From: Sulfuricaulis sp.
GTDB lineage: Bacteria > Pseudomonadota > Gammaproteobacteria > Acidiferrobacterales > Sulfurifustaceae
Direction of reading: 5' to 3'
Assembly: GCF_024653915.1 (NCBI RefSeq)
Contig: NZ_JANLGY010000014.1
Location: 1 to 54,017, forward strand
Length of the DNA stretch: 54,017 bases
Shown piece after piece: positions 11,766 through 53,877 of the stretch. Every line of letters starts with the position of its first letter. Positions within the stretch are counted from its first letter, which is position 1. A model generated the notes under the pieces. That model saw only the letters and a list, made by a program, of their open reading frames with translations, searched no databases and had not been told where the DNA came from. A program made the translations under genes and the position numbers.

Positions 11766-12392
11766 GTGGCACGTTACAACGATTCCAAATGCCGTCTTTG
11801 CCGACGCGAAGGCGGCAAGCTGTTCCTGAAAGGCGAGAAATGCTTCACCGAGAAGTGTCCGGTGGAGAAACGCGCCTATGCCCCCGGCCAGCACGGCCAG
11901 CAGAAGAGCCGCCTGTCCGATTACGGCAAGCAATTACGCGAGAAGCAGAAGCTGCGCCGCATCTATGGGATTCTCGAGCGTCAATTTGAGAATTACTACA
12001 AGGAAGCCGCTCGCCACAAGGGTTCGCCCGGCGAGGATTTGCTGAAGATGCTCGAATCCCGACTGGATAATGTGGCCTATCGTATGGGGTTCGGTGTCTC
12101 GCGGTCGGAGACAAGACAGCTGGTGCGGCACAATGCCCTGCGCGTGAACGGTCGGCGCGTCAACATCCCGTCTTATCAGGTCCGGCCCAACGACCTCATC
12201 GAGATTTCCACGTCGGCACAGGAACAGTTGCGCATCAAGGCGGCGCTCGAGGCGGCCGGTCAGCGCGGGATTCCGGAATGGCTGGACGTGGACGTCAAAG
12301 CCATGAAAGGCACGTTCAAGAGCGTGCCGGAACGCAACGACTTGCCGTCGGATATCAACGAAAGTCTCGTCGTAGCGCTTTATTCGAAGTAA
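11766..12392 (+). CDS. rpsD: 30S ribosomal protein S4, zinc-binding form
   Basis: The 208-residue protein has the S4 N-terminal domain and the S4 RNA-binding domain ([35 protein letters not shown]). Unlike E. coli S4 it has cysteines C9, C12, C26 and C31 near the N-terminus, a complete zinc site of the C+ type. S4 nucleates 30S assembly and represses the alpha operon in enterobacteria. The start is GTG at 11766. Confidence 0.97.
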
Positions 12393-12422
12393 CGCAATCC
12401 GTATTTTAACGAGGACGCTATC

Positions 12423-13436
12423 ATGCAGAGTTCCGCTACCGAATTTCTGAAGCCGCGTCTGGTGGACGTGCAGACGCTTTCTTCCACCCACGCGAAAGTC
12501 ACGCTTGAGCCGCTCGAACGCGGTTTCGGCTACACGCTGGGCAATGCGCTGCGGCGCATCCTGCTTTCTTCCATGCCAGGGAGCGCGATCACCGAGGTGA
12601 AAATCGACGGTGTGTTGCATGAGTACTCCACCATGGAGGGTGTGCAGGATGATGTGATCGAAATTCTGCTCAATCTCAAGACGGTGGCGTTGCGCATGCA
12701 CGGCCGTGACGAAGTAACACTGAAGCTTTCCAAAAAGGGCCCCGGCATTGTCACGGCCGGCGATATCCAGCTGGAACATGACGTGGAAGTGGTCGATCCG
12801 AAGCACGTGATCGCCACCCTCACCAAGGACGGAACACTGAGCATGGAGCTCAAGGTAAATCGCGGGCGCGGTTACCAGCCGGTCACGGCGCGCGCCGTCG
12901 GCGCCGAGCCCCGCACCATCGGTGTCATGCAGCTCGATGCCTCCTACAGCCCGATCCGCCGCGTGGCCTATACGGTCGAGAATGCGCGCGTGGAACAGCG
13001 CACCGACCTCGACAAGCTGGTTCTCGATATCGAAACCAACGGCGCCATCAACCCCGAAGAGGCGGTGCGGCGCGCAGCCAATATCCTGCAGGATCAGATC
13101 TCCATTTTCGTCGAGCTCAAAAGCCCCGAGACCAAGGCGGAAGAGAAGCGCGAACCCGAAATGGATCCGCTGCTGCTGCGTCCGGTGGACGATCTCGAGC
13201 TCACGGTGCGTTCGGCCAACTGCCTCAAGGCCGAGAATATATTCTATATCGGCGATCTTATTCAGCGCTCCGAGTTCGAATTGCTTAAAACACCCAATCT
13301 CGGCAAGAAGTCGCTGACGGAGATCAAGGATGTTCTGGCACAGCACGGCCTGTCGCTCGGCATGAAGCTCGAGAACTGGCCGCCGGCGTCCCTGAAGGAA
13401 AGGGAAAAAACCCCAGAGATGGGCTCCGCCATCTGA
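12423..13436 (+). CDS. rpoA: RNA polymerase alpha subunit
   Basis: The 337-residue protein has the alpha N-terminal dimerisation domain ([20 protein letters not shown]) and a C-terminal domain ([16 protein letters not shown] followed by [19 protein letters not shown]) that binds UP elements and activators. Length is close to E. coli (329). An acidic, Glu-rich linker (about residues 235-255) joins the two. Order rpsD-rpoA-rplQ is that of the alpha operon. Confidence 0.98.
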
Positions 13437-13461
13437 TTTAAAGCGTCGAAGGTTAATAATC

Positions 13462-13992
13462 ATGCGTCACCACAAAAGCGGCCGTAAACTCAACCGCACC
13501 AGCAGTCACCGCGAGGCGATGTTCCGCAACATGGCGGTTTCGCTGCTGCGCCACGAGCAACTGGTGACCACGCTGCCCAAGGCGAAGGAATTGCGCCGGG
13601 TGGCCGAGCCCCTCATCACGTTGGGCAAGACGGCCTCGCTCGCCAACCGGCGCCTGGCCTATTCGCGCCTGCGCGACCGCGACATGGTGGGCAAGTTGTT
13701 CGATGATATCGGCGTGCGCTTCAAGGATCGTCCAGGCGGTTATCTGCGCATCCTCAAGACCGGTTACCGGCGTGGCGATGCCGCGCCCATGGCGCTGGTA
13801 CAGCTAACAGAGCTACATGCCACCGAGACGGCGGCGACTGAACCGGTCGCCGAAGCGGGTTCCGCTCCGGAAACCAAGACGAAAAAAGCCGCCAAGTCGA
13901 AAGGTGACAAGAAAACCACCGCCAAGGCCAAGAAGAGCACGACCAAGAAAAAGACCGCAAAAACCGCCAAGAAAGCGGCAAAATCGACCTGA
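13462..13992 (+). CDS. rplQ: 50S ribosomal protein L17 with long basic tail
   Basis: Residues 1-118 are a normal L17 ([20 protein letters not shown], then the C-terminal [24 protein letters not shown]). About 58 further residues follow, first acidic/Ala-rich and then made of Lys, Ala and Thr repeats such as [17 protein letters not shown], resembling a histone H1 or Hc1-type tail. Most L17 proteins end near residue 120-130. The tail is in frame and ends in a TGA before a clean terminator, so it is part of the gene. Confidence 0.96.
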
Positions 13993-14043: not shown

Positions 14044-14248
14044 CTGCCCCCCGTCGTTTCATGCCGGCCGGCGCGCAGCCGGTTCCGGCGCTGCCGCAAT
14101 GTGGCATTGGGCTACATTTGCGGGTTATGCATCGCCCTAACAGGTTAATTCACAAAGCTAAATTCCAGACGGTATGTGGTATGTGAATTGCACACAGTTT
14201 CGATGGATTCCTGTGTCCCACGCTGAATTATTCGAGGCTTTCCAGCAG

Positions 14249-15481
14249 ATGTCTGCGGCAAAAAAGAAGATCAGCACCTTGGACCTCAAGCCAGGCATGT
14301 ATGTTTCCCGGCTGGACCGCCCATGGCGTGAGGCCGACGTGCTGTTTCAGGGTTTCTACGTCAACTCCTTTGAGCAGATAGAAGAACTGCGAAACAAGTT
14401 CAAGCATGTCTATATTGATACCTGGCGCAACAGTGCGCCGGGAAATAAAACAACCGCCGCCAACGAAGATGCGCTCGACGCAGAGTTGCAGAATATCTGC
14501 GGCCATCCCAAGCGCGATAACGTGTACAAGGATACGACAAGCGTCGAAGAAGAGCTTGTCGTCGCACAAGAGGTGCATAAGCAGGCCACGGAGGCCGTAG
14601 CCGAGATGATGGCGTGCCTGAAGGCGGGGAATTCGCTCAAGCTGGTCATGATCCACAATGTCGTTACTGACTTGATGGAAAGCATCCTGCGGAACCCGGA
14701 TGCGTTTTCGTGGTTGATGCACCTGAAGAAAAAAGATTCCTATACCTACACGCATTCCATCGACTCCTGCGCCCTGGCCGTCACGTTCGGCCGGCATCTC
14801 GGCTTGCCACGCGAAAGTCTGCTCAGTCTGGGTACCGGGGCGCTCCTGTTCGACGTGGGCAAGACCAAACTTCCCGAGGGTTTGTTAAACAAGCCCGGGC
14901 GGCTGTCACCGGATGAATTCCAGGTCATGAAGAAGCACGTTGATTACGGCGTGGATATCATCACCAAGATCAAAGGCAGCGGTATGGAAATGGTTGACAT
15001 GGTCAGGGCTCACCACGAGCGATTTAACGGTAGCGGTTACCCGCTGGGAACCCGGGGCCCGGACATCCCGCTGTTCGGACGTATCGCCGGCATCCTGGAT
15101 TGTTACGACGCCATCACCAGCGACCGTTCCTATCAGCAGGCGATTTCGCCGCATCAGGCGCTGCGAGTTCTTTATGGTGCTCGCAACACGGCTTTTCAGG
15201 AGGAGCTGGTTGAACAGTTCATCCAGTGTCTTGGTGTTTATCCGACTGGCAGCCTGGTGGAGTTGGTCAGTGGCGAAGTGGGTATCGTCATTGCGCAGAA
15301 TCGCGTGCGGCGACTGCGCCCGAAAATCATGATGATTCTGGACCATAACAAGGTGGCCCTGAAAAATTTTGAAACCATCGATCTTGACCGGGAAACTCCC
15401 GGAAAGAACCTGGAAATTGCCAACGTACTTCCTCCCGGCACCCATGGCATTGACCCCAAAGAATACTATCTCGGGGAATAA
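14249..15481 (+). CDS. HD-GYP domain protein with altered HD dyad
   Basis: From ATG 14249 the protein has 410 residues: an N-terminal DUF3391-like region (ISTLDLKPGMYVSRLDRPW), a linker, an HD-GYP domain (about 160-310) and a C-terminal tail. HD-GYP proteins usually hydrolyse cyclic di-GMP. Here the expected LLHDIGK reads LLFDVGK, so the metal-binding His is Phe201, while Asp202, the HH pair (255-256), the GYP motif (263-265) and DCYDAITSDRSY are kept. It may be inactive or a binding/sensing protein. An upstream ATG at 14174 would add 25 residues, but related sequence starts at the chosen site. A paralogue lies at 48329-49612. Confidence 0.9.
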   Translation: MSAAKKKISTLDLKPGMYVSRLDRPWREADVLFQGFYVNSFEQIEELRNKFKHVYIDTWRNSAPGNKTTAANEDALDAELQNICGHPKRDNVYKDTTSVEEELVVAQEVHKQATEAVAEMMACLKAGNSLKLVMIHNVVTDLMESILRNPDAFSWLMHLKKKDSYTYTHSIDSCALAVTFGRHLGLPRESLLSLGTGALLFDVGKTKLPEGLLNKPGRLSPDEFQVMKKHVDYGVDIITKIKGSGMEMVDMVRAHHERFNGSGYPLGTRGPDIPLFGRIAGILDCYDAITSDRSYQQAISPHQALRVLYGARNTAFQEELVEQFIQCLGVYPTGSLVELVSGEVGIVIAQNRVRRLRPKIMMILDHNKVALKNFETIDLDRETPGKNLEIANVLPPGTHGIDPKEYYLGE

Positions 15482-15571
15482 CATGAACAGCAGCAGTTTC
15501 CTTAATTACCGTGGGCGTCATGCGGTGCCCGCGGAATGCCGGAATTCACGGACTGTCGCAGGGTGCCCATC

Positions 15572-16879
15572 ATGAATTTTCCGATACCTAAACAGGATCG
15601 GTCGGCTTTTGTTGGCGAGCTGCAGAGGTACGTGGACAAGAGCCGCCGGGATGGTTCCCTGCTGGGCGTGATGCTGATCCATTTGCATCGCGTCGTCGAG
15701 CTCAATACATCATTCGGCTACAAGGTTGGCGATCGTCTGCTTGCCATCGTGCGTGACCGGATCGGAAAGATACTGCGTCCGAACGACAGCATCGAGCGCA
15801 TCGGCGATCATGATTTCGTGCTGGTTTTACCATCGCCCAAGAACGTGGGTCATGCGAGCCTGGCAGCTAACCGGATCGTAAATGTCCTTGAAGAGCCGCT
15901 CGAAATAGACGGCAATGCCATCAAGGCCAGTGTCGCTATCGGTATCGCCCTGTTTCCCGAACATGCCCAGGAAGCTGACGCGCTGCTGAGGTTGGCAGAC
16001 GTTGCTTTGGCAGGCGCAATCCAGTCGAACAGCCCCATCAAGATATGCGCTGAAGTGCCTGACAAAGGAACGCTTTCCTCGTTCATTATCGAGAGCGAAT
16101 TGCGTCATGCTTTGATGAATGACGAGTTTATCCTCTACTATCAGCCCAAAATCGATCTGGCTACGCGCCAGGTTTGCGGTGCCGAGGCTCTTTCGCGCTG
16201 GAACAATCCAGCGCGCGGGCTCGTCCCACCGGATGTGTTCATCCCGGTGGCGGAGCAGACGAATCTCATGCTGCCTTTCACGCTCTGGTCATTGAACCTG
16301 GCGGCGCGGCAGTTCGGTGAGTTCAACCGGCTCTCCAAGAATTTTTCCGTGGCGGTGAACCTCTCGGCAACGGTACTTTATGACCCCGACGTGGTTGATT
16401 TGATCAATCGCACCATCAAGATCTGGAGTATCAGGCCGGAGCAGCTGGTTCTGGAGGTCACGGAAAGCGCCATGATGGTGGACCCGAAGACCAGCCTGGA
16501 GACACTCAATCGGTTTCATGACCTCGGTGTGATGTTGTCCATCGACGACTTCGGGACCGGTTATTCGTCGCTCGCTTATGTAAAGAAAATGCCGGTGAAC
16601 GAATTGAAGATCGACAAATCTTTCGTCATGAACATGGATAAGGACAAGGGCGATGCCATGATCGTGCGCACCGTCATTGACATGGCGCATAATTTTGAAA
16701 TTGCGGTTACTGCCGAAGGTGTCGAGAGTCAGCTGATTCTTGAACAGCTGGCCGAGCTGGGCTGTGATTGCGCGCAGGGATTCTATCTGGCCAAACCGAT
16801 GCCAGCCGCGAATTTGATCGACTGGCTGCAGGTTTCGCCATGGGCCAGGCAAACCGGAATGCGTTCCGTAACCGGTTGA
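15572..16879 (+). CDS. c-di-GMP phosphodiesterase (EAL) with degenerate GGDEF
   Basis: The 435-residue soluble protein has a GGDEF-like domain (about 1-165) whose active motif reads GDHDF (78-82), so cyclase activity is unlikely, and an EAL domain (about 170-425). The EAL domain keeps EAL (205-207), a VNLSA segment, EVTES, the loop DDFGTGYSS, LKIDKSFV and AEGVES, all expected for an active phosphodiesterase. No membrane segment or sensor domain is seen. The start at 15572 follows an AGGG at fair spacing; an earlier ATG at 15536 is possible. It lies 90 bases after the HD-GYP gene and is probably co-regulated. Confidence 0.92.
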   Translation: MNFPIPKQDRSAFVGELQRYVDKSRRDGSLLGVMLIHLHRVVELNTSFGYKVGDRLLAIVRDRIGKILRPNDSIERIGDHDFVLVLPSPKNVGHASLAANRIVNVLEEPLEIDGNAIKASVAIGIALFPEHAQEADALLRLADVALAGAIQSNSPIKICAEVPDKGTLSSFIIESELRHALMNDEFILYYQPKIDLATRQVCGAEALSRWNNPARGLVPPDVFIPVAEQTNLMLPFTLWSLNLAARQFGEFNRLSKNFSVAVNLSATVLYDPDVVDLINRTIKIWSIRPEQLVLEVTESAMMVDPKTSLETLNRFHDLGVMLSIDDFGTGYSSLAYVKKMPVNELKIDKSFVMNMDKDKGDAMIVRTVIDMAHNFEIAVTAEGVESQLILEQLAELGCDCAQGFYLAKPMPAANLIDWLQVSPWARQTGMRSVTG

Positions 16880-47550: not shown

Positions 47551-48177
47551 CTACCAGCGCGCGTAGAGTCGACCGTTTTCAACCTTGGTCTCGAAACGTT
47601 TCAGGGGGCGATTGCCTTTTTCCACGCACTCGCCGGTTTTGATGTCGAAGGCCCAGTGATGTTTGGGGCAGGTGAGACGAAAACCCTCTAGCGCCAGATG
47701 CGGAATATTGGTGACCTGATGGGGGCAACGACTGTCGTATACCTGGAACTCCCCGTTGGCGCGGTAGATGAACAGGTTGCGGCCGTCGCTGTCGCTGTAG
47801 GTGATTTTACCATCCGGAATCTGATCCGCCGGTTTAACATCGTGCCAGCGCTTTTCCGCGCCCAGGTTCTCAGCGCGGAATTCCGGAATATCCATGTCGA
47901 GCAGGATGTCGACGGCCCACACGATTTTGGCCAGCCCGAGCGCCGGGAAGGCATGCAAGATGGCGTCGAGGATTTCGCTGGGTGTGGCGCCGGCGTCGAG
48001 CGCGCGTGGAAGATACTGGCGCAATCCACCTTCGGTCTGGACCGCGATCTTGGTGATGACCGTGATCAGCATACGCGTTTTGGGATCGAGCGATTTGCCC
48101 GTTTCCTTGAGAAATTTCAGGTAGGCCTTCATCGCCTCGGGGCGGGCGCTGACCAGATAATTTAGAGCGTCGCTCAT
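47551..48177 (-). CDS. Carboxymuconolactone decarboxylase-like/Rieske fusion protein
   Basis: The 208-residue protein has an N-terminal helical domain of the AhpD/carboxymuconolactone decarboxylase type (about 1-95; LDAGATPSEILDAILHAFPALG) and a C-terminal Rieske domain: Cys151-Pro-His153 and Cys170-Pro-Lys-His173 hold a [2Fe-2S] cluster. The CxxC of redox-active AhpD proteins is missing (TKIAVQTEGGLRQYLP stands there). I expect a soluble electron-transfer or ferredoxin-like component; the partner is unknown. No signal peptide is seen. It lies between an orphan gene and the second HD-GYP gene. Confidence 0.88.
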   Translation of the reverse strand: MSDALNYLVSARPEAMKAYLKFLKETGKSLDPKTRMLITVITKIAVQTEGGLRQYLPRALDAGATPSEILDAILHAFPALGLAKIVWAVDILLDMDIPEFRAENLGAEKRWHDVKPADQIPDGKITYSDSDGRNLFIYRANGEFQVYDSRCPHQVTNIPHLALEGFRLTCPKHHWAFDIKTGECVEKGNRPLKRFETKVENGRLYARW

Positions 48178-48328
48178 CCAATACTCTCCTGTGATTTACC
48201 GTATAAAGCGCAAGGACAATGTCCTGTACAGATGAGGTGGGTATTATGCGCAGCGTGCGCTTGATGCGCCAGTCGTCGAACGCGGTGACAACAGCTTATT
48301 TCAAATCTGAGTCAGATGAGCCCATGTC

Positions 48329-49612
48329 TCAGGCGCCCATGGGGATATATTTGGTGGGTATGACGCCGTGCTCGCCCGGCGGAAGGACCTTGCGGATCTC
48401 CAGCTTGCTGCTGCTTTTTTCGTTGGCATACTCCATCAGGTCGATGACCCTGGACGGTGTAAACGGGGTCTTGTCCGAGTTCAGTACCATGGCTACCTTG
48501 GGTCGCAGGCGGCGCGCACGGTTGATCGAGACCACCACCCCGATGCTGCCATTGCTGAGTTCGACAACACTGCCGATGGGGTAGATGCCCATGCATTGGA
48601 TAAACTGCTCCACCAGCAACGGTTGGAAATCCCGGCCGCGCCAAGAGTACATTTTCGTGAGCGCCTCGTGCGCCGATAGCCCGGCGTGGTAAGAACGATC
48701 CGAGGTGATGGCGTCGTAGCAATCCACAATGCCCCCGACGGATCCGAAGAGCCCGATCTGATCTCCCTTGGAACCGACGGCATAGCCCCCGCCCGCGTAA
48801 CGTTCATGATGGTAGCGGGCGACGTCAATGGAGGCGGAAGCGATGCCGTGCGTCTGTTCGAGGATACTCACTCCATGAGGGACGTGGCTCTTCATGAGGG
48901 CGAACTCCTCCTCGGTGAGCTTGCCTGGTTTATTGATGATGTCATTTGAAACTTTCATCTTGCCGATGTCATGCAGCAACGCGCCGATACCGAGGAGATT
49001 CAGCTCCTCGTCTGAGAGTTCCAAATGCCGGCCAAAGGCCAGCGCCAGAATGCAGACCCGCAGGCTGTGCAGCGCGGTGTACTCGTCCTTGTCCTTGAGC
49101 TGGTTGAGGCACATGAGCGCGTCCGGATTGCGGATGACGCTGTCCACCATATCGGCCACAACCTTCTTGGCCGCCTTAGTGTCGATACTGCGGCCAAGGC
49201 GCACATCGCCCATGATGCCGTAGACGGCCTCGCGGGTTTCGGTCACGATCTCCCGAGCGTGTCCGATTTCTTCCTCGAGCACGGTGACGTCCTGGTATCG
49301 CGGGGGACGCTGGTGTCCCGGTGTGAACCGTTCCAGAACCTTTTCGAATATGATGACATGCTCTTTCTGTTCCTTGGGAACAGTCAAGGCTGGCGCCACG
49401 TTGGCGGAAGGGCGGGGCTTCGATGAGACGCTATGCCCCTGTTCAGTGTCAACGTAAACGTGCTGACAGTAACGACCGATCTCCTCGATCTGATCGTCCG
49501 ATTGAACTTCGAAACCCTGAAAAAGGAACTTTGTATCACGCCAATGGCGACCCACCAGCTCGGACACATACATGCCGTGCCGAAGATCCTGAACGGGAAT
49601 CTTCTTTTTCAT
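48329..49612 (-). CDS. HD-GYP domain protein with altered GYP motif
   Basis: From the ATG at 49612 the protein has 427 residues: DUF3391-like N-terminus (MKKKIPVQDLRHGMYVSEL), linker, HD-GYP domain (about 175-330) and tail ending PPGEHGVIPTKYIPMG. The metal-site motif LLHDIGK is intact (His214, Asp215), as are HH (268-269) and DCYDAITSDRSY, but the GYP motif reads GYA (276-278). It is a paralogue of the gene at 14249-15481. Cyclic di-GMP hydrolysis is plausible but the motif change could alter specificity. It lies between the Rieske fusion and phosphoribulokinase genes. Confidence 0.92.
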   Translation of the reverse strand: MKKKIPVQDLRHGMYVSELVGRHWRDTKFLFQGFEVQSDDQIEEIGRYCQHVYVDTEQGHSVSSKPRPSANVAPALTVPKEQKEHVIIFEKVLERFTPGHQRPPRYQDVTVLEEEIGHAREIVTETREAVYGIMGDVRLGRSIDTKAAKKVVADMVDSVIRNPDALMCLNQLKDKDEYTALHSLRVCILALAFGRHLELSDEELNLLGIGALLHDIGKMKVSNDIINKPGKLTEEEFALMKSHVPHGVSILEQTHGIASASIDVARYHHERYAGGGYAVGSKGDQIGLFGSVGGIVDCYDAITSDRSYHAGLSAHEALTKMYSWRGRDFQPLLVEQFIQCMGIYPIGSVVELSNGSIGVVVSINRARRLRPKVAMVLNSDKTPFTPSRVIDLMEYANEKSSSKLEIRKVLPPGEHGVIPTKYIPMGA

Positions 49613-49681
49613 AACATAAAGATAGCAGCAAGATTCGCGCCAAATTGGCGCAAATTTCAATTAATGAGGGAAGGGAGGGGC

Positions 49682-50578
49682 CTAGGCTTTCTTTTTGTTT
49701 TCAAGCAGTTCTTGGATTAGCGGGGTGAGGATGATTTCCATGGCAAAGCCCATCTTTCCGCCGGGTACGACGATGGTATTGGGGCGGGACATGAACGATC
49801 CCTGAATCATGCTCAGAAAGTAGGGGAAATCGACCTTCTTGGGGTCGCGGAAACGAATGACCACCATGCTCTCATCGGGGGTCGGAATATCGCGTGCGAT
49901 GAAGGGATTGGAGGTATCCACCACGGCCACGCGCTGGAAGTTCACGTGCGAGCGTGAAAACTGCGGTGTGATGTAGTGCACGTAGTCGTACATGCGGCGC
50001 AGAATGGTGTCCACTACCGCCTCGGCCGAATAGCCGCGCTCGGCGGTGTCGCGGTGAATTTTCTGTATCCACTCAAGATTGACGATTGGCACCACGCCCA
50101 CAAGCAAGTCTACCCATTTGGCAGCATCCACGTTGGCCTTGGCGTCCACTACGCCGCCGTGCAGTCCTTCGTAAAACATGAGGTCGGTGCCGCGCGAAAT
50201 ATCTTCCCACGGAGTGAACTCGCCGGCCTTGAGGCTGATGTTGAGGCGTTTGTTGTGCTCCGCCGCTTCGCCGTCACTGTGCAGGTAATAGCGTTTTTTG
50301 CCCGCGCCGGTCTCGCCGTAGGATTTGAACTGTTTTTCCAGCTCGGCGAATATATTGGCCTCAGGACCGAAGTGACTGAAATTGTGATTGCCGCTGGTCT
50401 CGGCCTTTTTCATCGCCTCGCGCATCTCAACGCGGTTATAGCGGTGAAAGCTGTCACCCTCGACGATGGCCGGATTAATTTGCGCACGCCGAAAGATGTG
50501 CTCGAAGGCGCGCTTGACGGTGGTGGTGCCGGCACCGCTCGAACCGGTGATGGCAATGATCGGGTGCTTCCTGGACAT
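49682..50578 (-). CDS. prk: Phosphoribulokinase
   Basis: The 298-residue protein (start at 50578, MSRKHPIIAITGSSGAGTTT) has the P-loop at residues 12-20 and later EGDSFHRYNR and LMFYEGLHGG, typical of the proteobacterial class I enzyme (about 290 residues). It makes ribulose 1,5-bisphosphate in the Calvin cycle. Rubisco is not in the window. Lying beside the sox genes it ties thiosulfate oxidation to CO2 fixation. A start at 50614 would add 12 residues that do not fit. Confidence 0.97.
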   Translation of the reverse strand: MSRKHPIIAITGSSGAGTTTVKRAFEHIFRRAQINPAIVEGDSFHRYNRVEMREAMKKAETSGNHNFSHFGPEANIFAELEKQFKSYGETGAGKKRYYLHSDGEAAEHNKRLNISLKAGEFTPWEDISRGTDLMFYEGLHGGVVDAKANVDAAKWVDLLVGVVPIVNLEWIQKIHRDTAERGYSAEAVVDTILRRMYDYVHYITPQFSRSHVNFQRVAVVDTSNPFIARDIPTPDESMVVIRFRDPKKVDFPYFLSMIQGSFMSRPNTIVVPGGKMGFAMEIILTPLIQELLENKKKA

Positions 50579-50678
50579 CGTTGAGAACCCCTTGGGCCGA
50601 TAAAAGCGGCACATTCTACATCAGGGCGATTAGCGTATACCACCATCGGTGGTGGTGCCGATTCGTGCCTGGCAGGTG

Positions 50679-52415
50679 TTACACCGCAATTCCGGGGTTG
50701 CCAGAAACGCCCTTCAGGCGCGGGGTATAGGGGCGGTCAATGCGGACGGATTTTTTAGAGCGCAGATATTCGGCGACGATGTCCCATACGGGCTTGCCAG
50801 GTTCGATCGGTTGAACGCTGGCCCAACCGGCGACCTTGTATTTTTTGCCGGGATCGAGCGGCTTGCCCCGGACCACCATATTCTGGATACGCTTGCCGTG
50901 TTTCTCGGCGACGTCGAGCGTGTACTCCAGACCGCCGACACGAACCATGTCGCCACCCTGCTGGTAGTAGGGATCGGTGTGGTAGAGGTTGTCGGCGATG
51001 TCTTCCAGGATGACCTTGATCTGTTGGCCGGTGAGATGGTTGGCCGTCGCGGTGGCGTAGGTGATCGCGGTCTGATCCATGAGATTTTCCATCGTGATCG
51101 GGTCGCCCGGCAGCAGCGTGGTGCCCCAGCGAAAACCGGGCGAGAAAGCGATATCAGCGCCTTGCACCTTCAGCAGCGCGTCGATAATAAGCTGATCGAA
51201 GGTACCGTTGAAATTCCCGCGTCGGTACAACAGCCCCTCCGTTACAGCGAGTTTTTCGCCTAGCTTGTCCGCAAACGGCGCACGCACTTTCTCGATGTAG
51301 GTGGCCATTTCCTGATCGGGCGGGAGCAGATTGGCGAAAACCGGCAGCATTTTGAAACGATAATCCGCCACCTTGCCGTTCCTGACATCGAGATCAAGTA
51401 CCGCCAGGTATTTGCTGTTGGAGCCGGAGTTGATGACCAGCGTCTTGCCGCCAGCATTCTTGACCAGTGACGGTGCTGGAACGGCGTCATGCGTGTGCCC
51501 GCCGAGAATGACGTCAATGCCGCGCACGCGGCGGGCCATCTTGAGATCAACGTCCATGCCGTTGTGCGACAGCACCGCGACGACCTGCGCCCCTTTGCTG
51601 CGAACCTCGTCGACCATTTTCTGCATGTGGTCGTCGTTGATACCGAAGGTCCAATCCGGGACAAAGTGGCGAGGGTTGGCAATCGGCGTGTACGGGAATG
51701 CCTGGCCGATGATGGCTACTGGCACTTTATTTAATTCGCGAATGACATAAGGCTTGAATATCAGCTCGCCCCAGGTAGCGTCGTAGACATTCTGTGCCAG
51801 GAATTCGATCTGACCTTTCATGTCCTTGTCGACGATTTCCTTGACGCGTTCGGCCCCGTAAGTGAATTCCCAGTGCCCGGTGGCGATGTCCACGCCGAGC
51901 AGTTTCTGCGCGTCCACCATGTCCTGTCCCTTGGTCCACAGTGCCGTAGCCGATCCCTGCCAGGTGTCGCCGCCATCAAGAAATAGTGTGCGATCAGGAC
52001 GGCTGGCGCGCAGGTTCTTCACCAGCGTCGCGAGGTGCGCATAGCCGCCGATTTTGCCGTAACGCCGCGCGGCTTCCTCAAATTCGAGATAAGTGAAAGC
52101 GTGCGCTTTGATGGAGCCCGGCGCGATGTTGAAGTGCGTGAGCAGCGCCTCGCCGACCAGGTGCGGCGGTTTTCCATGAGCGGCGCCGACACCGATATTG
52201 ATGTTGGGCTCGCGGAAATAGGTGGGCATGAGTTGGGCGTGGGAATCGGTCATGTGCAGCAGCGTGACATTCCCGAATGGCGCGACATCGTAAAGATCGA
52301 CCGGTTTTTTGCTGCTGGCATACGCCTTGCGGCCGTTCAAACCGTCTTCGAATATGAGACCGGCTGCCGCTCCCATGGCCAGCATTTGCAGGAATTCGCG
52401 TCGGGATAGGCTCAT
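50679..52415 (-). CDS. soxB: Thiosulfohydrolase SoxB
   Basis: The 578-residue protein has a twin-arginine signal (SLSRREFLQMLAMGAAAG) and a metallophosphatase-like core with the metal ligands in HMTDSHAQL, GGDTWQGSAT, LSHNGMDVDL and GGHTHDA. SoxB removes the terminal sulfone group, as sulfate, from thiosulfate bound to SoxY. It is exported folded to the periplasm. It is separated from soxA by a 227-base gap with a terminator and a hairpin repeat, so it may be transcribed separately from soxYZA. Confidence 0.98.
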   Translation of the reverse strand: MSLSRREFLQMLAMGAAAGLIFEDGLNGRKAYASSKKPVDLYDVAPFGNVTLLHMTDSHAQLMPTYFREPNINIGVGAAHGKPPHLVGEALLTHFNIAPGSIKAHAFTYLEFEEAARRYGKIGGYAHLATLVKNLRASRPDRTLFLDGGDTWQGSATALWTKGQDMVDAQKLLGVDIATGHWEFTYGAERVKEIVDKDMKGQIEFLAQNVYDATWGELIFKPYVIRELNKVPVAIIGQAFPYTPIANPRHFVPDWTFGINDDHMQKMVDEVRSKGAQVVAVLSHNGMDVDLKMARRVRGIDVILGGHTHDAVPAPSLVKNAGGKTLVINSGSNSKYLAVLDLDVRNGKVADYRFKMLPVFANLLPPDQEMATYIEKVRAPFADKLGEKLAVTEGLLYRRGNFNGTFDQLIIDALLKVQGADIAFSPGFRWGTTLLPGDPITMENLMDQTAITYATATANHLTGQQIKVILEDIADNLYHTDPYYQQGGDMVRVGGLEYTLDVAEKHGKRIQNMVVRGKPLDPGKKYKVAGWASVQPIEPGKPVWDIVAEYLRSKKSVRIDRPYTPRLKGVSGNPGIAV

Positions 52416-52443
52416 ATTGTCTGATTTACTCCAAGAGTCTTAA

Positions 52444-52559
52444 ACCACGGGGAGCACGGGGAGTGAAAAGTACCGGAAAAACAGAGAGCCATTCTTAATC
52501 TTTCCTTTCCCCGTGTTCCCCGTGGTTTGAATTGGTTTCGTTATGGGTTTTAAGACGCC
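52444..52559. repeat. Duplicated hairpin element, copy 2
   Basis: It shares with 44574-44693 the start ACCACGGGGAGCACGGGG, an inner CCATTCTTA, the end CCCGTGGTTTGAATT, and the TAAGACGCC tail. The outer arms pair as a long hairpin. It lies between soxA and soxB. Confidence 0.88.
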
Positions 52560-52595
52560 CGGTGGCAATCTGGTATTCCGCGCCTGCCGGAAAAG

Positions 52596-52625
52596 AAAAC
52601 CCGGCGTTACCTCGCGCCGGGTTTT
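52596..52625 (-). terminator. Terminator after soxA
   Basis: AAAACCCGGCG (52596-52606) pairs with CGCCGGGTTTT (52615-52625); on the minus strand it is followed by TTTTCTTTT. It lies 17 bases past the soxA stop. Confidence 0.88.
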
Positions 52626-52642
52626 AGTACATCCGGGTTTTC

Positions 52643-53503
52643 CTAGTTGCGCATGGCCGGCGCCGTCAAGGGCAGGCCGCTGCTCATGTAGGTTTCGTAA
52701 AGCTGGAGATGGTTATAGATCTCGTCGCCGTGCTTGAAGGGCTTGGCGCGCACCTGTGAATTGCAGGTTTTATAGCGCTGATGGATGGTCTCCAGGCGGC
52801 CCCATTCCAGACGCTGGGCCGGCCAGGCCGTGGTATGGCCGAGCGCGGCGCTGAGCGGCTGGTTGCCGCCAAAATTTTTGCCCGCCAGATCCATATGACA
52901 ATTGGAACATGCGAAATTGAGCTGGCCGCGGCGCGACCACCAGAATTTCTTGCCCTCCTCGTAGGCCTTGACGGCGCCGGGGCTGGAAATATCAATCTTG
53001 ACGCGCTGACCCGCGGACAACGAGTAGAAATAAGCGGTCAACTCGGCCAGCTTGACGCGCGCCCCCTGATTCTTGTCGAGATCGGTGAATTCGGGCTCAC
53101 CATTTTTTTTCAGGCAGTCGTTCAAGTCCATTTCCGCGGTGCGGATCTTTTGCGTGGCCTCGTCCCAATAGGGATAGCCTTGGGCGATATTTTTACCCCC
53201 GTTTTTGAAACAGCTGGTAAAACTCTTGCCATTCTTGAACGGTGTTTCCCACATTTTTTTGCCCAGAGACAGTCCTAGCTCGTAGGGTGGAAATTCATTG
53301 AACATTTCCCATTGTTCGCGGTATACCTCCAGGCCTGGCAGGGCATAAAGGCCGTTAGAGAATTCATCGAACGGAACGGTGGGGAATTTTTTCTTGAAAA
53401 ACGCCTGGAACTGCTTCAGGTCGGTAGCCGGATCGGCCAGTACTGCTGGCATGGTTCCAGCGACAATACCCAGAGCAGCCAGAAGTAGTAAAATTTTTTT
53501 CAT
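52643..53503 (-). CDS. soxA: Sulfur-oxidising cytochrome c SoxA, monohaem
   Basis: The start at 53503 follows an AAAGGAGA site. The 286-residue protein has a signal peptide (about 1-23) and one haem motif CSNCH (199-203). The site of the second haem of dihaem SoxA holds only Cys98 and, further on, Cys130, probably a disulfide. Cys247 (KTCNSQVR) is the likely persulfide haem ligand. SoxAX joins thiosulfate to SoxY. An upstream ATG at 53530 would add nine residues and lacks the ribosome binding site. soxX is not in the window. Confidence 0.95.
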   Translation of the reverse strand: MKKILLLLAALGIVAGTMPAVLADPATDLKQFQAFFKKKFPTVPFDEFSNGLYALPGLEVYREQWEMFNEFPPYELGLSLGKKMWETPFKNGKSFTSCFKNGGKNIAQGYPYWDEATQKIRTAEMDLNDCLKKNGEPEFTDLDKNQGARVKLAELTAYFYSLSAGQRVKIDISSPGAVKAYEEGKKFWWSRRGQLNFACSNCHMDLAGKNFGGNQPLSAALGHTTAWPAQRLEWGRLETIHQRYKTCNSQVRAKPFKHGDEIYNHLQLYETYMSSGLPLTAPAMRN

Positions 53504-53556
53504 CGCGGGTTCTCCTTTTGGTGAATTCACGGACCGGATAAAGCGACGCTCCTCGT

Positions 53557-53877
53557 TCAGCCGACGGTGGCTTCCCCGCTGCCGCTTTCTCCCTTGTTGT
53601 CGCTCCAGGTGACCTTGATCTTGTCGCCGGGTTTGGCGCCCTTCAGCTTGATCCCGACCAGCGGGTCTTTCGATACCGCCGGGCCGAGATCGGTGGAGGC
53701 GACTTCCTTGCCGTTCAGGGAGAAGCTCAGTTTCTGAATGTAATGCGCCGGGACTTTCTTGTCCTTGTCCTTGGGGTCCGGGCGTTGACCGGTTTCCATC
53801 GGATGGTCAACCAGCACCAGGACGTCGGTTACGCCGCCTTGGGTTTTGGTCCGGATTTTAGTCTGCATGTCTGCCAT
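53557..53877 (-). CDS. soxZ: Thiosulfate-carrier subunit SoxZ
   Basis: The 106-residue protein is SoxZ, an immunoglobulin-like partner of SoxY, with VLVLVDHPMETGQRPD, the segment HYIQKLSFSLNGKEV and the end WSDNKGESGSGEATV. No signal peptide is present, since SoxZ is exported with SoxY. It lies between soxY and soxA in the usual order. Confidence 0.96.
   Translation of the reverse strand: MADMQTKIRTKTQGGVTDVLVLVDHPMETGQRPDPKDKDKKVPAHYIQKLSFSLNGKEVASTDLGPAVSKDPLVGIKLKGAKPGDKIKVTWSDNKGESGSGEATVG

Follow-up and report, generated by a model that had tools for sequence, protein, structure and literature searches.

A Sulfuricaulis HD-GYP variant with GYA for GYP is probably a working phosphodiesterase, and its FD-GYP paralogue may pair with an adjacent GGDEF–EAL protein

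Two paralogous HD-GYP proteins are encoded 33 kb apart in the window (the whole 54,017 nt stretch of Sulfuricaulis sp. DNA analysed here, which is contig C14 of a 2.73-Mb genome), and each is changed in a different motif. Has each of them lost what the other has kept? The original prediction had read the two as complementary decay, hinting at a working hetero-oligomer or at a divided function with catalysis in one protein and recognition in the other. From sequence comparison we think it rather probable that one protein, with GYA for GYP, is a working phosphodiesterase of the Y/F subfamily whose GYP proline is drifting, and that the other, with FD for HD, is a non-catalytic regulator paired with an adjacent GGDEF–EAL protein. 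The gene of the GYA protein has the following features.

48329..49612, minus strand: GYA protein, DUF3391 + HD-GYP, 427 aa, predicted active dinuclear cyclic-dinucleotide phosphodiesterase
48968..48973, minus strand: HD motif H214-D215 (PmGH H221-D222), intact
48779..48787, minus strand: G276-Y277-A278 (PmGH G284-Y285-P286), GYP changed to GYA
48722..48724, minus strand: D297 (PmGH D305), last metal ligand, intact
48686..48688, minus strand: H309 at the position of PmGH K317 (guanine contact)

The gene had been located correctly and lies on the minus strand. Translation confirmed that LLHDIGK is kept and that GYA stands in place of GYP; the protein also contains HHERYAGGGYAVG and PPGEHGVIPTKYI. 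Pfam assigned DUF3391 (PF11871) to the N-terminal part (E 5.4e-27), followed by HD_5 (E 7.8e-20), which gives the DUF3391–HD-GYP architecture. The trinuclear enzyme PmGH of Persephonella marina (PDB 4mcw) was the best PDB match by sequence (E 6e-30) and also by fold, and the structure model of the GYA protein (mean pLDDT 87.6) matched HD-GYP structures. All seven ligands of the HD-GYP metal site are present: H182, H214, D215, H243, H268, H269 and D297 align with H189, H221, D222, H250, H276, H277 and D305 of PmGH and are thus common to both proteins. K225 (K218 in the GYA protein), D308 (D300), R314 (R306) and I294 (I286) are kept as well, and the changed positions are E185 (Y178), P286 (A278) and K317 (H309). 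PmGH, unlike the GYA protein, has E185, GYP and K317, and it carries GAF rather than DUF3391 at its N-terminus. In the loop after HHE the GYA protein retains the Gly, the Tyr and the later Ile (I286) and reads GYA; since the GYP triad is incomplete, we describe the protein as an HD-GYP variant.

Y178, at the position of PmGH E185, places the GYA protein in the Y/F subfamily (Tyr or Phe at this site), which Bellini et al. judged more likely to be dinuclear in their report on PmGH (PMC4159591). Tyr was found at this position in 127 of 150 family members. Loss of E185 was considered as a defect of the GYA protein and ruled out, because Tyr is normal in the Y/F subfamily. Among the PmGH mutants reported in PMC4159591, H221A had essentially abolished activity, and G284A, Y285A, P286A, I294A, R314A and K317A showed no substantial decrease. 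P286A mimics GYA; since this mutant kept its activity, the GYA form would be the natural counterpart of an active mutant. The role of GYP is puzzling here, as alanine changes barely affect PmGH catalysis and yet the motif is highly conserved. According to statements in a review, the GYP triad occurs in all active HD-GYPs (PMC8177086), and a GYA protein that is active in nature, as predicted here, would break this rule.

Further known systems resemble the GYA protein to different degrees. DUF3391 is presumably also the uncharacterised N-terminal domain of PA4108 of Pseudomonas aeruginosa. PA4108, which we liken to the GYA protein by description, is reported to hydrolyse c-di-GMP and to carry an additional domain at its N-terminus (PMC3774798). 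VC2497 of Vibrio cholerae, likewise likened by description, has the DUF3391–HD-GYP pair as written in PMC4212101, where it is the sole DUF3391-labelled member of the set; unlike the predicted state of the GYA protein, it was inactive in all assays used there, and one conserved residue is given as missing. The inactive dinuclear Bd1817 of Bdellovibrio (PDB 3tm8) gave a fold match over ~335–360 columns that included the N-terminal domain, at high rmsd; as described, it is without the GYP Tyr and the last Asp ligand, both of which the GYA protein has.

The paralogue lies near the other end of the window, followed by the GGDEF–EAL gene.

14174..15481, plus strand: paralogue, DUF3391 + FD-GYP, 435 aa from the first ATG, predicted non-catalytic
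14849..14851, plus strand: Phe codon at the catalytic HD histidine (PmGH H221)
15035..15043, plus strand: intact GYP
15536..16879, plus strand: GGDEF–EAL protein, 447 aa, GGDEF degenerate (GDHDF), EAL motif kept, putative FD-GYP partner

The conserved part of the FD-GYP protein begins near the ATG at 14249, and the structure model of this 410-aa form (mean pLDDT 88.7) matched HD-GYP structures; the models of the two proteins speak for the fold and not for any contact. The protein is 46% identical to the GYA protein, with DUF3391 and HD_5 matches in both, and reads LLFDVGK, HHERFNGSGYPLG and PPGTHGIDPKEYY. Phe replaces His in its HD dyad and GYP is intact, so the opposite motif states seen in the original prediction hold. 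DSY in place of DEY was considered as a lost ligand and ruled out by the alignment to PmGH. Because the FD site is the position whose loss kills PmGH, the paralogue is predicted to be non-catalytic. Two V. cholerae proteins without an intact HD, VC1087 and VCA0895, are likewise listed as inactive in PMC4212101.

We take RpfG of Xanthomonas as the model for the FD-GYP paralogue. According to PMC3749722, RpfG needs GYP to bind two GGDEF proteins, whose DxD motif mediates the contact, while some other outputs of RpfG were unaffected by alanine changes in GYP. The paralogue retains this GYP. RpfG carries a REC domain and is enzymatically active, unlike the paralogue, which lacks the catalytic His and for which a GGDEF contact is putative. 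NosR of Burkholderia pseudomallei, a degenerate (HG-GTP) response regulator, is presented in PMC12570481 as a dead HD-GYP whose suggested targets are other c-di-GMP enzymes; as described there, it differs from the paralogue in its REC domain, in having both motifs changed and in its operon.

A third DUF3391–HD-GYP paralogue, on contig C13, is 60% identical to the GYA protein and has an intact HD and GYI. The DUF3391–HD-GYP paralogues of this genome are thus a set of three, and two more matches align with the GYA protein over the HD-GYP part only. An ORF on contig C17 (L005, 1-2001) carries, by reading, GGDEF and HD-GYP in one chain, with HE for HD and an intact GYP. Two same-genus paralogues, L078 3989-5293 (G005) and L072 3968-5275 (G004), do not belong to the FD clade and differ in both motifs, since LD replaces HD, and GYG or GYL replaces GYP.

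Is GYA a sign of decay? We searched 60 genomes, own included, and the family was present in 47 at E 1e-40 or better. Motifs were read in 110 proteins and later, once named loci had been added, in 150 distinct proteins. All seven ligands were present without Pro in 76 of these and with Pro in 32, a broken ligand was found with Pro in 32 and without Pro in 7, and 3 proteins were gapped. Pro was therefore kept in 32/39 proteins with a broken ligand. Among ligand-intact proteins it was absent in 76/95 from the 60 related genomes and in 0/13 from the other named loci. The substitutes in intact proteins were diverse (A 24, I 18, V 10, M 9, S 5, N 4, K 3, L 3). Beyond the order, 24/24 readable class-wide proteins of either kind and 40/40 His-intact proteins of a further set carried Pro. 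In a 178-protein tree, Pro/non-Pro required at least 6 state changes and His/no-His at least 7. Relaxation of the GYP proline, with the full catalytic set kept, looks like a feature of the order as far as its sequences tell.

An orthologue of the GYA protein was detected in 8 of 9 genus genomes, always with GYA and all seven ligands, although the synonymous codons varied. Pairwise dN/dS was 0.05–0.16 for these orthologues (8 genus genomes) and 0.09–0.15 for the FD paralogue (4 genomes), by a simple Nei–Gojobori count in which several dS values were saturated. We conclude that GYA is not decay, because it is conserved in orthologues at low dN/dS, non-Pro residues are common in the order and PmGH P286A is active; on conservation, on the PmGH mutants and on the distribution of the two forms given below, we rejected the complementary decay of the original prediction. 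The GYA protein is probably an ordinary, working signal-degrading enzyme, and we propose that it is a free-standing phosphodiesterase. For annotation, this is a caution that a missing GYP proline need not mean lost activity.

Other positions varied as well. HDIGM replaced HDIGK (PmGH K225) in 25/147 classed proteins, e.g. L085 and L091; 16 of these 25 have all seven ligands and GYP, and the corresponding alanine change hurts the activity of PmGH. In three proteins of Cellvibrionaceae and Pseudoteredinibacter (L146, L148, L155), four of the seven ligands are changed (HKDFHCS) and GFP or GYP is kept.

The original prediction had suggested looking for co-occurrence of both variants across related genomes. 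We found independent presence and absence, one of the two things that it had named as refuting it, with the GYA orthologue in 8/9 and the FD or SD form in only 4/9 genus genomes (G000, G001, G003, G006). G005 (one contig, 99% complete) has the GYA orthologue and no FD form; G003 (87% complete) has the SD-GYP protein and no GYA orthologue. Across the 46 genomes with a classifiable protein, the intact non-Pro form occurred in 45 and an FD-clade member in 6. Both were present in 5 of the 46, the non-Pro form stood without the FD clade in 40 of its 45 genomes, and an FD-clade member alone was found in G057. The two forms are therefore not an obligate complementary pair. In a class-wide search of other families, the HD histidine was replaced by Phe, Leu, Met, Cys, Ser or Ala with Pro kept, and the intact non-Pro form was not found in these families with His-lost proteins, in either the class-wide or the further set.

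The FD-GYP gene has a neighbour of its own. The GGDEF–EAL gene starts 54 nt downstream on the same strand. In nine loci of other families (L223–L231; FD-, LD- or MD-GYP), a same-strand downstream GGDEF–EAL match occurred in 9/9, with aligned ends at most ~0.66 kb apart, and the other window genes tested had no match downstream in these nine loci. Nine other DUF3391–HD-GYP loci (L232–L240) gave one match 1.45 kb downstream, one on the opposite strand and one GGDEF piece. For all distinct proteins with enough flank, a downstream same-strand GGDEF–EAL gene was found with 28/43 His-lost vs 1/115 His-intact proteins (8 and 15 with too little flank were left out, and most of the 115 are from the own order); for loci from L127 onward, the His-intact count was 1/28. 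For further genomes (60 loci), with the prediction stated beforehand, the neighbour was present in 13/22 His-lost vs 0/39 His-intact proteins, one His-intact protein without flank being set aside.

Shared descent limits these comparisons. Raw Fisher tests gave p 4e-19 for the first set and 8e-8 for the further set, and these values overstate the adjacency: the first set has 51 His-lost members, of which 44 fall into a single clade (support 100). The adjacency of FD-GYP and GGDEF–EAL genes rests largely on this clade, in which Pro is kept in 42/44 and Tyr in 41/44 members. Independent-pairs tests on the tree gave no support for a link of His loss with adjacency (5 pairs) or of lost Pro with lost His. 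Mirror-tree comparison of FD-GYP proteins and their neighbours yielded r 0.86 (0/2000 permutations), which is no proof of contact since shared descent predicts the same. By the rule used, the neighbour was absent in 10/38 His-lost clade members with enough flank, one of which (L230) has a GGDEF–EAL match ~0.44 kb away, and in 9/22 His-lost proteins of the further set. Pro is also kept in 39 His-intact proteins that have enough flank and no such neighbour, and the neighbour is therefore not the sole reason for Pro.

In G003 the GGDEF–EAL neighbour (L215, 16299-16688) is cut to its last 130 residues (318–447), and the SD-GYP gene upstream of this remnant is open and under constraint. No fusion of FD-GYP and GGDEF–EAL genes was seen among the matches listed from 229 genomes of the class, the longest frame being 540 aa, and the sole ORF matching both profiles in loci up to L240 was the HD-GYP protein L005, whose alignment with the GYA protein is confined to the HD-GYP part. 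Our literature searches, mostly outside subscription papers, found no prior description of an FD-GYP + GGDEF–EAL module.

The two domains of the neighbour differ in state. Canonical [GAS]G[DE]EF was found in 0/27 neighbours with the motif region vs 16/21 comparison GGDEF–EAL proteins; nearly all of the comparison set belongs to one genus (20 loci of the own genome and of G005, and the 825-aa protein of the window). In the further set it was again absent (0/13, hence 0/40 overall). The EAL glutamate was kept in 26/26 neighbours and the DD pair in 25/26, and both were kept in 13/13 neighbours of the further set. DDFG reads DDPG in four Rhodocyclales/Sulfuritalea neighbours and DD is missing from L142, so some of the EAL domains may be inactive. 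All 26 longer neighbours group together, separate from the comparison proteins (support 99).

From these comparisons we infer enzymatic activity, substrate, physical contact and regulation as follows. The GYA protein would be a Y/F, probably dinuclear DUF3391–HD-GYP protein that hydrolyses c-di-GMP or a related cyclic dinucleotide. Hydrolysis would be independent of the GYP proline, which appears to vary freely in the order, and the ligand-intact non-Pro proteins would not use the proline for whatever preserves it elsewhere. The FD-GYP protein belongs to a clade in which the catalytic His is gone and GYP is retained, and it most likely works with the adjacent GGDEF–EAL protein. Through its GYP loop the dead HD-GYP would touch the degenerate GGDEF, and this contact would tune the EAL phosphodiesterase of the neighbour. 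Such a role is suggested by analogy with the GYP–GGDEF contact of RpfG and with CC_3396, given in PMC12943098 as an example of a degenerate GGDEF that can control an attached EAL. The divided function put forward originally fits what is seen, a catalytic set in one protein and a recognition motif in the other, and function may indeed be split in this way; the pairing of these two proteins is not supported, and the likelier partner of the recognition protein is the adjacent GGDEF–EAL protein. We hold more tentatively, at somewhat under even chances, the broader notion that the two genes form a module widespread in Gammaproteobacteria, whose dead DUF3391–HD-GYP docks by its GYP on the degenerate GGDEF of the neighbour and switches the EAL, with GYA and GYI proteins as the reverse case, live, freed from docking and with a drifting proline. 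If this were true, one live domain would be controlled by two pseudoenzyme domains. A single genome holds both halves, ligand-intact proline-drifted proteins and a dead GYP-keeper of the kind often found beside a GGDEF–EAL gene, which makes a docking role of GYP directly testable.

Three other readings have to be weighed. The one with some standing, which we consider unlikely, is a changed substrate: having lost the GYP proline and gained His at K317, the enzyme would act on pGpG or on a different cyclic dinucleotide. His at K317 occurred in 53/76 intact non-Pro proteins, in 1/32 intact Pro proteins and in 0/39 proteins with a broken ligand (relatedness uncorrected), and GYP is called a substrate-specificity element for c-di-GMP and 3'3'-cGAMP in PMC8177086. 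This covariation strengthens the changed-substrate reading and slightly lowers our estimate for the preferred one. However, P286A and K317A of PmGH are both reported to have retained c-di-GMP hydrolysis, and the residue after GY is so diverse (A, I, V, M, S, N, K, L) that it looks more like relaxed constraint.

A complementary hetero-oligomer, in which the GYA protein gives the metal site and the FD-GYP protein the GYP recognition surface, seems to us improbable and is unsupported as first proposed, since GYA is conserved and the two forms are distributed independently. The 46% identity of the proteins and the joint presence of both orthologues in 3/9 genus genomes (G000, G001, G006) agree with it, as does the anti-association of broken ligand and lost Pro among the 147 classed proteins, with 7 having both (Fisher p 1.5e-8, relatedness uncorrected). 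Against it stand, besides the distribution, the distance of 33 kb between the genes, a third paralogue with intact HD and GYI, the reported harmlessness of P286A in PmGH and the recurrent neighbour that the FD gene has of its own. We give hardly any credence to a decaying pseudoenzyme heading for loss. Its departure from the textbook signature would fit such a fate, but the frame is open with all seven ligands in 8 orthologues, dN/dS stays at 0.05–0.16, gene order is kept in the 4 genomes compared and the fold is confidently predicted. A working GYA enzyme and an FD-GYP regulator with its own neighbour thus remain our preferred reading.

Elsewhere in the window, a 509-aa open frame at 11934-13463 (minus strand) is antisense to rpsD and rpoA, has no Pfam match and is probably spurious. 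The gene directly upstream of the GYA gene is prk.

49682..50614, minus strand: phosphoribulokinase/uridine kinase-family gene (prk)

The order soxZ–soxA–soxB-like–prk–GYA gene is kept in G001, G004 and G005, and soxB-like–prk–GYA gene in G007 over the part covered; the name soxB is putative, Pfam giving the 5'-nucleotidase C-terminal domain only. At 47551-53877 the soxZ, soxA, soxB-like, phosphoribulokinase-family, GYA and CMD–Rieske genes lie on one strand. G004 keeps soxZ through the GYA gene, with no Rieske match thereafter; G001 and G005 share the full order, as does G007 as far as it is covered, and this run of genes may point to a connection with sulfur oxidation and carbon fixation.
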